Below are positions 22,464 through 29,793 of a stretch of 37,343 bases of DNA, piece after piece. Position 1 is the first letter of the stretch, and the number at the start of each line of letters is the position of its first letter. Source of the DNA: Nitrospiraceae bacterium (GTDB lineage Bacteria > Nitrospirota > Nitrospiria > Nitrospirales > Nitrospiraceae); assembly GCA_900299325.1 (NCBI GenBank), contig OMJK01000178.1, positions 1 to 37,343 on the forward strand. Direction: 5' to 3'. The notes beneath the pieces were generated by a model, which saw only the letters and a program-made list of their open reading frames with translations, made no database searches and had not been told where the DNA came from. The translations under genes were made by a program, and so were the position numbers.

Positions 22464-24263
22464 ATGAGTTTCCTGCGCTGTCCAGCGTACGAAAATGGGA
22501 AACAGGAAGAGCAGTGCCAGCCGACTCCGGTCCCTCCGGGATTCCGTGACGCAGTTCACGAAACGTTGTCCGAGGGTGAGACGGACGTGATTCATAAGCA
22601 CGACGAACAGCCCCGCGAAGTCGACAAACTTCGCGTTCAGATTCAGTCGATGGAAGAGGAACTCCGTCGGCTCTATCAATCCCGCTATCAGCTCGATCAA
22701 GCCACCAAGCAGAACGAACGGCTCGCCGCGACGCTCCAGGAAGCCAAGGCGCAGATCGAAGCGCTGCGCGCCGAAGTCGAAAAGCTGACGGCGCCGCCGT
22801 CGACCTACGCCATTTTCTCCAGTTTGAACGAAGACGGTACCGGCAACGTCTATGTGTCGGGGCGGAAGATGAAGGTGAGCCTCCATCCCTCCATTAAGAG
22901 CAAAGCCTTGCGCCGCGGGCAGGAAGTCATCCTCAACGAAGCCCTTAACGTCATCGAGGCGAAAGGCTTCGAGCTGCAGGGCGAGGTGGTGCGGTTGAAG
23001 GACGTGCTGGAAGGTAACCGGGTGCTGGTGACGCTGCATTTCGACGAAGAAAAAGTCGCCGAACTCGGCGATCCCCTGTTGGCCGAGCGGCTGAGCGTGG
23101 GCGATCATCTGCTCTTCGACACGCGGTCGGGGTACGTCATCGAGAAATTGCCCAAGTCGGAAGCGGAAGAATTGGTCCTCGAAGAGGTACCGGACGTCGA
23201 CTACGACCACATCGGCGGGCTGCAGCGGGAGCTCGAACAGGTCCGCGACGCGGTCGAGCTGCCGTTCCTGCATCCCCATCTGTTCGCGGAGTTCAAGCTG
23301 AGCGCGCCGAAAGGCGTGCTGCTCTACGGGCCCCCGGGCTGCGGCAAGACGCTCATCGCCAAAGCGGTGGCCAATTCGATCGCCAAGAAGCTGGGGCATT
23401 TGACGGGCAAACAGGTGCGGAGCTACTTTCTGCACGTCAAAGGTCCCGAGTTGCTCAATAAATATGTGGGCGAGTCCGAGCGCCAGGTCCGCGAAGTGTT
23501 CAAGAAGGCCAAGGAGCGGGCCGAGGACGGCAACCCCGTCATCGTCTTCTTCGACGAGATGGACGCGCTCTTCCGCACGCGGGGCACCGGCATTTCGTCG
23601 GACATCGAATCGACCATCGTGCCGCAGTTCCTGTCGGAGATCGACGGCGTCGAGCGGCTGCGCAACGTCATCGTGATCGGCGCCAGCAACCGTCAGGATC
23701 TCATCGATCCGGCCGTGCTGCGGGCGGGGCGGCTTGATGTGAAAGTGAAAGTCGGGCGGCCGGACGCCGTCGCGGCGCGCGACATCTTCTCGAAGTACGT
23801 GTCCACCGAGCTGCCGTTTGCGCCGGAGGAATTAGAACGGCATGGCGGCGACCGGAAGGCGCTGGTGGAACGGCTGACGACGCTGACCGTCGACACCATG
23901 TATGCGGCGACGGAAGAGAACAAGTTCATCGAAGTGACGTATGCGAACGGTGAAAAGGAAGTGCTCTACTTCAAGGATTTCGCCAGCGGGGCGCTGATCG
24001 AAGGAATTGTGTCCCGCGCAAAGAAGTATGCCGTCAAGCGGGCGATCGCCCAGGAGGGTGTCGGCCTGCGGTCCGAGGATCTCGTGCGCGCCATCCGGGA
24101 AGAATTCAAAGAACACGAAGACCTGCCCAACACCACGAACCCGGACGATTGGGCCAAAGTCGCCGGCAAGAAGGGCGAAAAGATCGTGCACATCCGGACG
24201 ATCAGCGGCGGGCCCTCAGAATCGCGCCAGATCGAAACGGTCACCACCGGCCACTATCTCTAG
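22464..24263 (+). CDS. mpa: Mpa/ARC, proteasome-associated AAA+ unfoldase
   Basis: This ATPase ring unfolds tagged proteins and feeds them into the 20S core. The 599 residues include a coiled coil (about 50-97, EVDKLRVQIQSMEEELRRLY), tandem OB domains (about 100-245), and the AAA domain with Walker A GPPGCGKT (near 290), Walker B VIVFFDEMDALF (near 360) and VLRAGRLDVKVKVGRPD. The C-terminus is GHYL, with the penultimate Tyr used to dock on the proteasome alpha ring, as in the mycobacterial QYL end. The first ~40 residues look non-conserved; a GTG at 22587 (MIHKHDEQPREVDKL) with GAGGGTGAG upstream is an alternative start. dop follows by 11 bp. Confidence 0.95.
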   Translation: MSFLRCPAYENGKQEEQCQPTPVPPGFRDAVHETLSEGETDVIHKHDEQPREVDKLRVQIQSMEEELRRLYQSRYQLDQATKQNERLAATLQEAKAQIEALRAEVEKLTAPPSTYAIFSSLNEDGTGNVYVSGRKMKVSLHPSIKSKALRRGQEVILNEALNVIEAKGFELQGEVVRLKDVLEGNRVLVTLHFDEEKVAELGDPLLAERLSVGDHLLFDTRSGYVIEKLPKSEAEELVLEEVPDVDYDHIGGLQRELEQVRDAVELPFLHPHLFAEFKLSAPKGVLLYGPPGCGKTLIAKAVANSIAKKLGHLTGKQVRSYFLHVKGPELLNKYVGESERQVREVFKKAKERAEDGNPVIVFFDEMDALFRTRGTGISSDIESTIVPQFLSEIDGVERLRNVIVIGASNRQDLIDPAVLRAGRLDVKVKVGRPDAVAARDIFSKYVSTELPFAPEELERHGGDRKALVERLTTLTVDTMYAATEENKFIEVTYANGEKEVLYFKDFASGALIEGIVSRAKKYAVKRAIAQEGVGLRSEDLVRAIREEFKEHEDLPNTTNPDDWAKVAGKKGEKIVHIRTISGGPSESRQIETVTTGHYL

Positions 24264-24274
24264 TCGCCATCTCT

Positions 24275-25777
24275 ATGCACGATCACAAACCGACGAAGAC
24301 CTCCCGGATCCTGGGAACGGAGACGGAGTTCGGCATCGCGTCCAAGGATGCGGCGGCTGCCGATCCCGTGTCGGGCTCGATTGCCGTGATCGGCCACTAT
24401 CCGGGCCTGCCCGCGCCGCAGGCCATCTGGGATTACGAAAACGAAAATCCGCTGCTGGACGCGCGCGGGTTCGAGGTCGACGGCGAACGGGAACGCCCGA
24501 ATCCCGACTACAACCGGCAGCTGAACAAAGTGCTGGCTAACGGCGGCCGGCTGTATGTGGACGGCGCGCACCCCGAGTATTCGACGCCGGAATGCACGAA
24601 CCCCCGGGAAGTGGTGGCATTCGAGCGGGTCGGCGAACGCATTCTTGCCCAATGCCTGCAGCACATGGCGCAGGCCAACGGGCGGGAACACTATGTTCTC
24701 TACAAGAATAATTCCGACGGCAAGGGCAACAGCTACGGGTACCACGAAAACTATCTGGTCGCCCGCTCCGTTCCGTTCGACCGGCTCGTGCACGTGCTGG
24801 CGCCGTTCTTCGTCACGCGATTGATTTTTGCGGGGGCGGGAAAAGTCGGCGCCGAAAATCAGACCAGTCCCACGGAATATCAAATCTCGCAGCGGGCCGA
24901 CTTCTTCGAGTGTCTGGTCGATCTCAACACGATGGTCAAGCGGCCGATCGTCAATTCGCGGGACGAACCGCACGCGGACCATGCCAAGTTCCGCCGCCTC
25001 CACGTCATCGTCGGCGATGCCAACATGGCCGAGCTGTCGACGTATCTCAAGGTCGGCACGCTGGGCATCGTGCTCGATCTCATCGAATCCGGCGCCGCCG
25101 ACCTGCCGCAACTGGATCTGGACGAGCCGGTGCGGGCGATCAAACAGGTGTCGCGCGATTTGGACATGCGCCAGACGTTGAAGCTGGCCGGTGGCCGGCC
25201 GACGACGGCAGTGGCGGTGCAGCGGGCATATCTGCATGCCGCGAAGAATTTCTACGCCTGCCACGAACTCGATCAGGTGACCAAAGATGTGCTGGTGCGC
25301 TGGGAAGACGTGCTCGACAAGCTGGAACGGGACCCCCGGTTGCTGGTCCGGGATCTGGACTGGGTGGCTAAGCGCCATCTGATCGAATCTTATATGGACC
25401 GCAAGGGATGCGGCTGGGAGGATTCGCGCATCAAGCTCATGGATCTGCAGTATCACGATGTCCGGCCCGACAAGGGATTGTTCTATACGCTGGAGCGGGG
25501 GAACCTGATCGAGCGGGTCGTGCGGGACAGCGAAGTCGTGCGGGCGGAATTCACGCCGCCGTCCGGTACGCGGGCCTACTTCCGCGGGCGCTGCGTGAGC
25601 AAGTTCGCCAAGTCGCTCTACGGCGCCAGCTGGACGTCCGTCCTGTTCGACGTCGGCAACACCACGATCAAGAAAGTGCCGCTGATGGAACCGCTCCGGG
25701 GGACGGAGGCGCTCACGGCGGAATTGCTCGACAGCGCCGAGACCGCGGACGCGCTCCTGGCGAAGCTGAAGGCGTGA
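24275..25777 (+). CDS. dop: Dop, deamidase/depupylase of the tagging system
   Basis: Dop removes Pup from proteins and, where Pup ends in Gln, deamidates it to Glu. The 500 residues have the carboxylate-amine/glutamine-synthetase-like fold: GTETEFGI (14-21) with metal-binding Glu residues, the Dop-type stretch with WDYENENPLLDARGFE, and catalytic Asp96 in LYVDGAHPEYSTPECT. Later blocks are NNSDGKGNSYGYHENYL and NSRDEPHADHAKFRRLHVIV. The extra loop before WDYENE separates it from PafA. The ATG at 24275 is 11 bp after mpa. In actinobacteria pup sits between dop and prcB; here only 31 bp lie there. Confidence 0.95.
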   Translation: MHDHKPTKTSRILGTETEFGIASKDAAAADPVSGSIAVIGHYPGLPAPQAIWDYENENPLLDARGFEVDGERERPNPDYNRQLNKVLANGGRLYVDGAHPEYSTPECTNPREVVAFERVGERILAQCLQHMAQANGREHYVLYKNNSDGKGNSYGYHENYLVARSVPFDRLVHVLAPFFVTRLIFAGAGKVGAENQTSPTEYQISQRADFFECLVDLNTMVKRPIVNSRDEPHADHAKFRRLHVIVGDANMAELSTYLKVGTLGIVLDLIESGAADLPQLDLDEPVRAIKQVSRDLDMRQTLKLAGGRPTTAVAVQRAYLHAAKNFYACHELDQVTKDVLVRWEDVLDKLERDPRLLVRDLDWVAKRHLIESYMDRKGCGWEDSRIKLMDLQYHDVRPDKGLFYTLERGNLIERVVRDSEVVRAEFTPPSGTRAYFRGRCVSKFAKSLYGASWTSVLFDVGNTTIKKVPLMEPLRGTEALTAELLDSAETADALLAKLKA

Positions 25778-25808
25778 GCGCAGTGGTGACGAGTCCGTTC
25801 GCACAACC

Positions 25809-26633
25809 ATGAACCTGCCGTTTCTGCCCAACCACGACGATTCGAGCTTCTTCGATTTCATCTCGAAGCAGCATCCCGACCTGACGATCGGCAACCGCGG
25901 GCTGTCGTCCGCGCCGGCGGGACCGGACGCGTCCCGCGGCGTGCCGCCCATGACGGTGCCGCAGGCCACGACGGTCCTGGCCATCAAATACCAGAAGGGT
26001 GTGGTGATCGCCGGAGACCGGCGGGCGACCGAAGGGTTCCAGATCGCCGACCGGCGGATCGAAAAAGTGTTCAAGATCGATGACCATTCTGCCATGGCCA
26101 TCGCGGGCGCCGCGGGCCCCTGTATCGAAATGGCCAAACTGTTTCAGACGGAACTGGAGCACTATGAAAAGCTGGAGGGCGTGGCGCTCTCCTGCGAAGG
26201 TAAGGCGAACAAGCTGGGCCAGATGGTGAAGGCCAACCTGCCGATGGTGTTTCAGGGCCTCGTCGTCATGCCGCTCTACGTCGGCTTCGACGTGAAACGG
26301 GGCGAAGGCCGCATCTTCAAGTACGACATTACCGGCGGGCGGTACGAAGAGTCGGACTATCACGCGATCGGGTCAGGCGGGAAAGATGCGCGGAATACCA
26401 TGCGGGAACATTTCCAGAAGAATTTTGCGGAAGCCGACGCGCTCAAGCTGGCGTTGATGTCGCTCTACAACGCGGCGGACGACGACGTCGGCACGGGCGG
26501 GCCCGATCTGGTGCGCGGGATTTATCCGACCGCCAAGTGCGTGACGGCCCAGGGGATCGCCGACGTGCCCGACGCCTCCATCCGCGCCGTCTATGACGGA
26601 TTGATCGCCGCGCGCCGCTCGAAGGAGACGTAA
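25809..26633 (+). CDS. prcB: PrcB, proteasome beta subunit
   Basis: PrcB forms the two inner, proteolytic rings of the 20S proteasome. The 274-residue precursor has a 53-residue propeptide containing SSFFDFISKQHPDL, matching the actinobacterial propeptide. Cleavage would expose Thr54 as Thr1 (TTVLAIKYQ). Asp17 lies in GDRRATEG and Lys33 in RIEKVF at the expected spacing, and YNAADDDVGTGGPDLVRGIYPTA is conserved. The residue before Thr1 is Ala, not the usual Gly. No strong ribosome site precedes the ATG, so coupling to dop is likely. prcA begins 2 bp after the stop. Confidence 0.97.
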   Translation: MNLPFLPNHDDSSFFDFISKQHPDLTIGNRGLSSAPAGPDASRGVPPMTVPQATTVLAIKYQKGVVIAGDRRATEGFQIADRRIEKVFKIDDHSAMAIAGAAGPCIEMAKLFQTELEHYEKLEGVALSCEGKANKLGQMVKANLPMVFQGLVVMPLYVGFDVKRGEGRIFKYDITGGRYEESDYHAIGSGGKDARNTMREHFQKNFAEADALKLALMSLYNAADDDVGTGGPDLVRGIYPTAKCVTAQGIADVPDASIRAVYDGLIAARRSKET

Positions 26634-26635
26634 CG

Positions 26636-27322
26636 ATGCCGATGCCCTACTACGTGTCTCCCGAGCAGATGATGCAGGACAAGGCGGAGTACGCCAAGAA
26701 GGGCATCGCGAAGGGCCGCTCGATCATCGTGATGGAATATGCGGACGGCGTGCTGCTGACGGCGGACAATCCGAGCGCGTCGCTGCACAAGATCTCGGAA
26801 GTCTACGACAGCATCGCGTTCGCCGGCGCCGGCAAGTACAGCGAGTTCGAAAACCTCCGCAAGGCCGGCATCCGCCACGCCGATTTGAAGGGCTTCATGT
26901 ACAGCCGCGAAGACGTCACGGCCCGGTCGCTGGCCAACGGTTACTCGCAAAGCCTGGGCACGATTTTCAGCCAGGAGATCAAGCCGCTGGAGGTCGAAAT
27001 TCTCGTCGTGCAGGTCGGCGTGAACGGGCATCCCAACGAGATTTACCGGATTTCTTTCGACGGCAGCATCATCGACGAAAAGAAATTCGCCGTCATCGGC
27101 GGCCGGTCGGAAACCGTGCAGACATTTTTGAAAGACAAGATCGACGGCCAGGTGCCGTCGCTGAAGGCCGCCGTGGCCCTCTGTGTCTCGGCGCTCGAAC
27201 AGACGCCCAATCAGAAGCTCGCTCCCGAGGGACTCGAAATTGCCGTGCTCGAACGGCAGCGGGCCACCCGCAAGTTCCGCCGGCTCTCCACCGCCGATAT
27301 CAAACAACTGCTTGCCTCGTAA
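26636..27322 (+). CDS. prcA: PrcA, proteasome alpha subunit
   Basis: PrcA builds the outer rings that gate the 20S proteasome and receive the ATPase tails. The 228 residues begin MPMPYYVSPEQMMQDKAEYA, then KGIAKGRSIIVMEYADGVLL and NPSASLHKISEVYDSIAFAG, closely matching mycobacterial PrcA (FPYFISPEQ, KGIARAKSVVAL, SLQKISELYD). The Lys in LHKISE belongs to the docking pocket for the ATPase tail. The C-terminus is shorter than in mycobacteria and lacks the Ser/Gly-rich tail. The start follows prcB by 2 bp, with AAGGAGA upstream; equal production of both subunits is expected. Confidence 0.97.
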   Translation: MPMPYYVSPEQMMQDKAEYAKKGIAKGRSIIVMEYADGVLLTADNPSASLHKISEVYDSIAFAGAGKYSEFENLRKAGIRHADLKGFMYSREDVTARSLANGYSQSLGTIFSQEIKPLEVEILVVQVGVNGHPNEIYRISFDGSIIDEKKFAVIGGRSETVQTFLKDKIDGQVPSLKAAVALCVSALEQTPNQKLAPEGLEIAVLERQRATRKFRRLSTADIKQLLAS

Positions 27323-27346
27323 TCCCCGTTCGCGGTTCTCCGTGAT

Positions 27347-27378
27347 CTGTTGATCAACAGGGGAGGGGCGTGTATTCT
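27347..27378 (+). promoter_or_regulatory. pafA promoter with an overlapping palindromic operator candidate
   Basis: TTGATC (27350-27355) and TATTCT (27373-27378) are spaced by exactly 17 nt. A perfect 14-bp palindrome, CTGTTGATCAACAG (27347-27360), covers the -35 box. The start of transcription would be near 27385. The palindrome is where a dimeric repressor or activator could bind; the regulator is unknown. Confidence 0.55.
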
Positions 27379-27409
27379 GTCTTCACACGCCATGATGCCT
27401 CCCGGCCCC

Positions 27410-28786
27410 ATGAAACAGCGCATCTTCGGGCTCGAAAACGAGTACGGCCTGATCTTTTCGCCCAACGGGCGCATCTATCTGCCGATGGAGAAGGTGCTGG
27501 GCTACATCTTCGAAGGTTTGATCCCGAACAGCTGGCCGTCCAACGCGTTTCTCGTCAACGGCGCGCGGTTCTACCAGGACACCGGCTGCCATCCGGAGTA
27601 CTCCACGCCCGAGTGTGACAACATTCTGGATCTCGTCGTGCACGACAAAGCGGGCGAGCGGCTGCTCGAAGCCTGCCTCCCGGCGGCGGAGGAGCGGCTG
27701 CGGGAAGAGGGATTGTCCGGGGAAATTTATATCTTCAAGAACAACACCGACTCGCTCGGCAACACCTACGGCTGCCACGAAAACTTCCTGATGCGGCGCG
27801 ACGTCGATTTCTGGAAAGTCACCGAACAGCTGATCCCGTTCTTCGTGACGCGCCAGGTCTACAGCGGAGCGGGCAAAGTGTTGAAGGTGTCGGGCAAGCC
27901 GCAGTTCTTCATCTCGCAGCGTGCCCAGCATATTCACGAGAAGACGTCGTCGTCCACGACCTCGTCGCGCAGCATCATCAACACGCGGGATGAACCGCAT
28001 GCCGACGCGGAACGCTATCGCCGGCTCCACATCATCGTCGGCGATTCCAACATGTCGGAGTACGCGACGTATCTCAAAGTCGGCACGGCGGCGCTGGTGC
28101 TGTCTATGATCGAAGAAGGTTACGCCGTTCACGGGATGGAGTTGGAAGATCCGGTCAAGGCGATCCGGGAGATTTCCCGCGATCCCACATTGAAAAAGAA
28201 GGTGAAGCTGGACGACGGCCGGCAGATGACCGCCATCGAGATTCAGCGGGTCTACCTGGAGCGTGCGAAGGAGTACCTCGATCAGCAGGACCACGAGCCG
28301 CTGCTCGACGACGTCTTCGCCAAATGGGCGGCTATCCTCGACGACCTGGACGACGATCCGATGCAACTGACGCACCAAGTCGACTGGGTGGCAAAGAAGC
28401 ACATCATTCAGTCCTACATCGACAAGAAAGACTGCGGGTGGGACGATCCGCGGGTGTTTCTGCTCGACTTGCAGTATCACGACGTGAAGCGGACACGCGG
28501 GCTGTATTATCTGATGGAGTCCCGCGGGATGGTCGATCGCATTGTCGAAGAGGAGGCGGTGCAGCGTGCCATGTCGACGCCGCCGCAAACGACGCGCGCG
28601 AAGGTGCGCGGGGATTTCATCCGCTTCGCGCGGGCCAAAAACCGGTCGTACACTGTGGACTGGACGTACTTGAAGCTCAACGGCTATTGGGAAGAAACGA
28701 TTCTCTGCATGGATCCCTTCAGCGCGGCCAACCGGCGGGTCGAGGAACTGGTCTCGCAGGTGTCGGGGGCGCGGTTTTACCGATGA
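27410..28786 (+). CDS. pafA: PafA, Pup ligase
   Basis: PafA uses ATP to join the C-terminal Glu side chain of Pup-like tags to lysines of target proteins. From the ATG at 27410 the protein has 458 residues and begins MKQRIFGLENEYGL, placing metal ligand Glu9 and catalytic Asp57 (GARFYQD) at the mycobacterial positions. HPEYSTPECDN, NNTDSLGNTYGCHENFL and NTRDEPHADAERYRRLHIIV follow. Starts at 27392 or 27395 are possible and would add five or six residues. A separate promoter lies in the 87-bp gap after prcA. The stop overlaps the next gene by 4 bp. Confidence 0.96.
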   Translation: MKQRIFGLENEYGLIFSPNGRIYLPMEKVLGYIFEGLIPNSWPSNAFLVNGARFYQDTGCHPEYSTPECDNILDLVVHDKAGERLLEACLPAAEERLREEGLSGEIYIFKNNTDSLGNTYGCHENFLMRRDVDFWKVTEQLIPFFVTRQVYSGAGKVLKVSGKPQFFISQRAQHIHEKTSSSTTSSRSIINTRDEPHADAERYRRLHIIVGDSNMSEYATYLKVGTAALVLSMIEEGYAVHGMELEDPVKAIREISRDPTLKKKVKLDDGRQMTAIEIQRVYLERAKEYLDQQDHEPLLDDVFAKWAAILDDLDDDPMQLTHQVDWVAKKHIIQSYIDKKDCGWDDPRVFLLDLQYHDVKRTRGLYYLMESRGMVDRIVEEEAVQRAMSTPPQTTRAKVRGDFIRFARAKNRSYTVDWTYLKLNGYWEETILCMDPFSAANRRVEELVSQVSGARFYR

Positions 28787-29793
28787 CAGCCCGAACTCTC
28801 CTCTGGAACACCAGGTTCGACAGGGCCGTCATCGTCACGGTCTTGTTGCTGGCGAGCATTTTCCCCGTCGATCTCTTTTCCGGCGCTCCGCCGGCGTCCA
28901 CCGGTGTCGACGGGCAGTACAGCGGCAAGCAGGGGCAGATTCTGCTCGTCAAAGTGCCGGCCGATGAGACCGCGGTGTCGGTGCAGGGCCGCTTTCTGGA
29001 AAGAACCGTGAGCTTTTTCCCCGATCCGAGGGCCGGTGAAGCGCCGGGCTATGTGGCGCTGGTGGGTATCGACATGCAGGACGATCCGGGCACCCACGAG
29101 TTGACGGTCGAGATCAGGAACGGGGAGAAGGTCAAACGCCTCAGGTACAACGTGCTGGTCGTGAAAGAAAAGTTTCATGTCGAACATTTGAAGCTGCCCA
29201 AAGACAAAGTCGATCTGGACGAGAAAGGTTTCGCTAGATGGAAAACGGAGCAGGAACAGGTGAAGCAGGCGTTGGCGGAGGATTCACGGCTGAAACTCTG
29301 GCAGACGGGCTTTCTTGAGCCGGTCAGCGGCCGGCGGACGGGCATTTTCGGCAGCGTGCGCATCATGAACGGCCAGGCGCGCAACCCGCACAACGGCGAG
29401 GACATCGGCGCGCCCATGGGCGCCGACGTGATTGCGACCAACGATGGGACGGTGCGGCTGACGGTGGACCATATTTTTTCCGGCAGGGGCATCTACGTCG
29501 ATCACGGGCTTGGCTTCTACTCGATGTATTTCCATCTCTCCGAGGTGCTGGTGAAGGAGGGGGAAGCGGTCAAGGCGGGGCAGGTCATCGGCAAAGTCGG
29601 CGCCACCGGCCGCGCCACCGGCCCGCATCTCCATTGGGGTGTCAAACTCAACGGCGCCCGCGTCAACCCCTACGCGCTGCTGGATCTACCGTTCAAGAAT
29701 GGCTCAATGCCAGAGAATATAGTCGTCACTCCCGTTTCTGAATCCGCGTCGATACCACTACCGGTTCAGGAGTCCATTCCAGCTAAACAATAG
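28783..29793 (+). CDS. M23-family peptidoglycan endopeptidase, membrane-anchored or exported
   Basis: The 336-residue protein has an N-terminal signal or anchor (AVIVTVLLLASIFPVDLF), an Ig-like beta domain (about 45-130, GKQGQILLVKVPADETAVSV), a helical linker, and a C-terminal M23 domain with all zinc ligands: His203 and Asp207 in HNGEDI, then His282 and His284 in PHLHWG, plus a YFH site. It should cut peptide cross-links of peptidoglycan in the periplasm. The start overlaps the pafA stop (ATGA), so it is translated with the ligase, an unusual partner. The last ~35 residues are a low-complexity tail. Confidence 0.92.
   Translation: MTARTLLWNTRFDRAVIVTVLLLASIFPVDLFSGAPPASTGVDGQYSGKQGQILLVKVPADETAVSVQGRFLERTVSFFPDPRAGEAPGYVALVGIDMQDDPGTHELTVEIRNGEKVKRLRYNVLVVKEKFHVEHLKLPKDKVDLDEKGFARWKTEQEQVKQALAEDSRLKLWQTGFLEPVSGRRTGIFGSVRIMNGQARNPHNGEDIGAPMGADVIATNDGTVRLTVDHIFSGRGIYVDHGLGFYSMYFHLSEVLVKEGEAVKAGQVIGKVGATGRATGPHLHWGVKLNGARVNPYALLDLPFKNGSMPENIVVTPVSESASIPLPVQESIPAKQ

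Follow-up and report, generated by a model that had tools for sequence, protein, structure and literature searches.

The proteasome locus studied here is almost certainly a complete Pup-type system of Nitrospira, and its tag, judging from sequence, is a Pup encoded on a separate contig of the same genome (C101), the gene having most likely moved out of the operon. The window, meaning the whole analysed stretch of 37,343 nucleotides, carries mpa, dop, prcB, prcA and pafA. An earlier note had described these genes as a tag-ligase locus without a tag, and proposed that the tag may be encoded elsewhere or that a different substrate may be joined. Since Pup is identified elsewhere in the genome, the apparent puzzle of a tagless proteasome is not real. 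The first proposal is borne out by the pup gene on C101; the second finds no support, given a canonical Pup in the same genome.

The five enzymes are encoded by intact open reading frames with ATG starts, all on the plus strand, at positions 22464-28786 of the window. The proteasome-activating AAA ATPase mpa/arc (22464..24263, 599 aa) matches TIGR03689 with 736 bits (cut-off 504.75); the protein has OB domains, a C-terminal GHYL and, judged by eye, an N-terminal coiled coil. It is followed by the depupylase/deamidase dop (24275..25777, 500 aa; TIGR03688, 549.1 bits, cut-off 492.3), which aligns with PDB 4b0r. The 20S proteasome beta subunit prcB (25809..26633, 274 aa; TIGR03690, 295 bits, cut-off 191.9) encodes a precursor with a 53-residue propeptide before Thr1 (Thr54 of the precursor). 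The alpha subunit prcA (26636..27322, 228 aa; TIGR03691, 309.6 bits, cut-off 139.05) precedes the Pup ligase pafA (27410..28786, 458 aa; TIGR03686, 564.1 bits, cut-off 551.3), which aligns with PDB 4b0t. By profile scoring, all five proteins thus exceed the curated equivalog cut-offs for the Pup-proteasome system. Asp96 of Dop, Asp57 of PafA and Thr1/Asp17/Lys33 of mature PrcB, which from family knowledge we take to be the catalytic residues, fall in stretches alignable to solved structures. Open reading frames and equivalog scores agree with the earlier note that the five genes are present and intact, its residues are found where it placed them, and its intergenic gaps of 11, 31, 2 and 87 nt are recovered on recomputation. 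Its span (24264-27409) covers part of the locus, with mpa and pafA lying outside. Downstream, the start of an M23-family peptidase frame (28777-29793) overlaps the end of pafA; provided that this start is correct, the overlap suggests possible co-transcription with the proteasome operon.

No tag is encoded in the window. The 31-nt dop-prcB gap (25778..25808), the site of pup in relatives outside the order Nitrospirales, and the 87-nt prcA-pafA gap (27323..27409) are both without one. A Pfam Pup search of the whole genome, at E up to 10, returned no match in the window and a single place on another contig. A tag in an overlapping frame was also considered and is ruled out by a six-frame search of the window with filters off, which gave no match at E up to 10. 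The profile used was built from 56 Nitrospirales Pup sequences; it contains two genes twice (L014/L160, L020/L159) and a decayed copy from G043, and lacks the pups of G048 and G052. UBact (PF20513/NF033388) is not found above cut-off in the genome, where the best match reaches 12.6 bits (E 0.351, cut-off 27.8) on another contig. The genome-wide Pup and UBact profile search that the earlier note had called for yields Pup on C101 and no UBact above cut-off, and its failure to see a Pup or UBact frame within the locus holds up, as the profile searches of window and genome are empty there.

The pup gene (C101:5428-5625, minus strand) encodes 65 aa ending in YVQKGGE and is recognized by both Pfam Pup PF05639 and TIGR03687. 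The PF05639 match (G000:C101:5431-5619, minus) scores 77.2 bits with an E of 3.7e-21 and a cut-off of 27. The C-terminal half of the protein matches Pup chains in the PDB (3m91_B, E 7.3e-11), with which it shares the C-terminus ...YVQKGGE. A Pup with the C-terminal GG[EQ] signature is hence present in this genome, as QKGGE. On C101, the 3' end of the membrane pyrophosphatase gene hppA lies upstream of pup and recJ lies downstream, all in one direction. A promoter scan of the pup region yielded consensus matches alone, and no conclusion here draws on it. Adjacency of pup to dop or pafA is absent here, with pup on a separate contig; such adjacency is a feature of gene order that the mechanism does not require.

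This arrangement is shared across Nitrospirales. Among 59 genomes of the genus and order, the present one included, a Pup match occurs in 55 and exceeds the cut-off in 54. We examined the flanks of 57 matches, over 1.5-3 kb or more where the contig allows, and 56 hold pup; the remaining match, L158 in G051, was rejected, with no pup there. None of the 56 loci has mpa, dop, prcB, prcA or pafA near pup. Their neighbours are instead recJ (53 loci) and hppA (47), with either gene at 55 and both at 45. The loci without recJ nearby are L028 (at a contig end), L140 and L149; the last, in G055, is the only one of the 56 with neither recJ nor hppA. Another 15 loci from the genus and family were picked from matches in a draw of genomes from the whole phylum, and recJ and hppA are both near pup in every one. 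The tag gene of this lineage thus normally lies apart from the enzyme genes, a circumstance that the earlier note itself had set against its reading. The C-termini of the 56 sequences, two genes being counted twice, are QKGGE in 51, QKGGQ in 4 and decayed in 1. The Pup of G005 (L156:3023-3244) carries an in-frame duplication, with KVVEAGKKLK present twice, an open frame and an intact GGE.

Four of the 59 genomes (G009, G015, G020, G041) have no pup despite 2-5 Pup_ligase matches each. The pup region is probably unassembled in these, since the contig with the single recJ piece of G009 enters that gene at base 3, and recJ was not found in the other three. G051 yields a single ligase match without a credible pup; conversely, G008, at 80% completeness, keeps an intact pup while none of its genes matches the ligase. 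No Pup_ligase match was obtained in G043 either, at 96% completeness, and its pup relic (L157:3037-3171; G043:C79) adjoins recJ and ends in QQGRG, without GGE. In this genome, the working end of the tag appears to have been lost along with the ligase, the outcome to be expected were pup to rely on that enzyme.

We kept 80 of the 295 loci confirmed in named genomes, to which the window's PafA is 88-94% identical; their titles read Nitrospira, Nitrospiraceae or Nitrospirae, with two given as uncultured Nitrosospira. This places the source of the window in Nitrospira. A six-frame profile search around pafA found a Pup match in none of the 80. The dop-prcB gap measures -1 to 230 nt in 75 of 78 loci (81 examined, window included), and the three remaining values are negative and read as artefacts of dop truncation at a contig end. 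The gaps of four named loci (L036, L042, L053, L065) reach 212-230 nt, and these gave no match in the six-frame Pup search. The gap of G024 holds an insert of ~410 nt (about L115:2357-2767) that is repeat-like by eye and has a long open frame; we considered it as a pup remnant and rejected this, as no Pup-like end was seen in six frames read by eye.

It could be argued that the locus lacks a partner Pup, and that what its ligase attaches is some other tag, as yet unrecognised, or a small molecule. The lack of any tag frame within the locus fits this idea. However, the genome encodes a canonical Pup, as do nearly all of those surveyed, and the window enzymes pass Pup-type cut-offs, which makes such an alternative very improbable.

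Use of a UBact encoded elsewhere in place of Pup is no more credible, at the same low level of likelihood. UBact does exceed its cut-off in 37 of the 59 genomes and is missing at that level in 22. In contrast, none is above cut-off in the present, incomplete, genome. Where UBact occurs it appears to have enzymes of its own: G022 holds a second complete operon (L124:7931-14656) in the order mpa2, dop2, UBact, prcB2, prcA2, pafA2. The G022 UBact is 64 aa long, ends in RTGE and matches PF20513 and NF033388 (79.1 bits, cut-off 35). Coordinates also place UBact beside a second dop in G024, G017, G025 and G048. By hand count, 33 of the 37 genomes with UBact have at least four Pup_ligase matches, compared with 0 of the 22 without; our genome (77% complete) has two. 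Furthermore, genomes without UBact above cut-off (e.g. G021, G036, G039) keep both the Pup-type locus and pup. A UBact-proteasome operon was reportedly described by Lehmann et al. in 2017 in BBRC. Its ligases, ATPase and 20S subunits are homologous to those of the window and it forms the second operon of relatives, but it is separate, has its own tag and, in L124, all five of its enzymes (Mpa, Dop, PrcB, PrcA and PafA) fall short of the Pup-type cut-offs. The view that Gram-negative lineages use UBact, which the earlier note had brought to bear, therefore fails for this locus, whose enzymes score as Pup-type.

C101 belongs to the same genome as the window by composition. Its G+C content is 0.628 versus 0.623, and its tetranucleotide distance from the window is 0.118, compared with 0.121-0.204 for 21 pieces of the window against the rest of it and 0.236-0.355 for the three relatives tested. 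Gene order in relatives agrees. G022, G019 and G024 are collinear with most of the window, and their hppA-pup-recJ regions with C101; in each of the three, pup is found upstream of dop and on its strand. Contamination of the bin by C101, leaving the host without pup, is the least likely explanation of all: the assembly is fragmented, with an estimated contamination of 1.69%, but C101 lies nearer to the window in composition than any tested window piece lies to the remainder, and the relatives with which it is collinear have the pup region and the proteasome locus on one contig. We infer the linkage of C101 to the window contig from these relatives because the genome (2.17 Mb), at 77% completeness, is spread over 239 contigs. 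Read across them, pup would lie ~20 kb (G022), 26 kb (G019) or 25 kb (G024) past the left end of the window. In all 11 genus members hand-paired as having pup and dop on one contig, pup is upstream and 45.1-59.2 kb from the first dop. The distance in another Nitrospirales family is 88 kb (G039), 115 kb (G052) or 1.41 Mb (G048).

Outside the order, pup remains with its enzymes. The phylum draw comprised 148 genomes, 66 with pup, and 23 out-of-order loci were checked. A proteasome or ligase gene is beside pup at all 23, and both dop and prcB are at 21; L180, one of the two without this pair, is cut by a contig end. At L173 (G092), a ligase gene is the sole such neighbour; it directly follows pup, and prcB is not within reach. 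Three families of the same class (G171, G182, G188) are represented among the 23, and their operons are the closest in-operon relatives found; they have the same gene set as the window locus, but carry pup between dop and prcB. Leptospirillum ferrooxidans likewise has a Pup-proteasome operon with the same gene set and pup between dop and prcB, according to PMC3511204. As pup is detached across Nitrospirales and in-operon elsewhere in the phylum, parsimony makes it most likely that the gene was ancestrally between dop and prcB and made one move to the hppA-recJ junction on the Nitrospirales stem. UBact exceeds its cut-off in 52 of the 148 genomes, including G171 and G182. These two carry UBact with pup in the operon, and dual carriage is therefore independent of the relocation.

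The actinobacterial system, mpa/arc-dop-pup-prcB-prcA-pafA, has the same five enzymes in the same order and a Pup with a conserved C-terminal half. It differs in that pup lies between dop and prcB, whereas here, by synteny, it is tens of kb off between hppA and recJ. In Mycobacterium, the encoded Pup has a Gln at its end, as described in PMC3511204, compared with the GGE end here. Pup was reported in nitrospirae by Iyer et al. 2008 (PMC2588565), who call the gene invariably adjacent to that of PafA. The 2012 review (PMC3511204) calls the gene order rigidly conserved and credits L. ferrooxidans with two copies of the whole system, the second with a Pup without terminal GGE; in our reading, that second Pup may be UBact. 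Dop and PafA are described as largely conserved in Nitrospirae in PMC7947786. Literature on pup, UBact, proteasome and PafA in Nitrospira and Leptospirillum, a search in which subscription journals are thinly covered, yielded no description of a detached pup. The clade-wide detachment departs from the published invariance; it is a variant of gene order and not a new mechanism.

With Pup supplied from C101, the pathway would run as in other Pup systems. From knowledge of the family, PafA (27410-28786) would use ATP to couple Pup, through its terminal Glu, to target-protein lysines. Dop (24275-25777) would remove Pup from the conjugates, and Mpa would thread pupylated proteins into the PrcA/PrcB proteasome for degradation. 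Deamidation by Dop should not be needed before ligation, because the last residue of the C101 Pup is already Glu and not Gln. PMC3511204 outlines the same pathway: ligation to lysines by PafA, removal by Dop, and degradation by Mpa with PrcA/PrcB. A further, speculative scheme, which we consider rather unlikely, is that most Nitrospira run parallel, non-interchangeable Pup and UBact pathways in one cell, and also that the move of pup to hppA-recJ uncouples tag supply from the enzymes, with energy state or DNA repair setting tag availability.

These findings resolve the seeming oddity of a proteasome that lacks its tag. They show that pup can become detached from its operon and remain so throughout a bacterial order, contrary to two published claims of invariance, and that annotation confined to the operon will miss the tag. 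In addition, since most Nitrospira searched have a Pup system and a separate UBact system, the tag specificity of two related ligases can be addressed within one organism.
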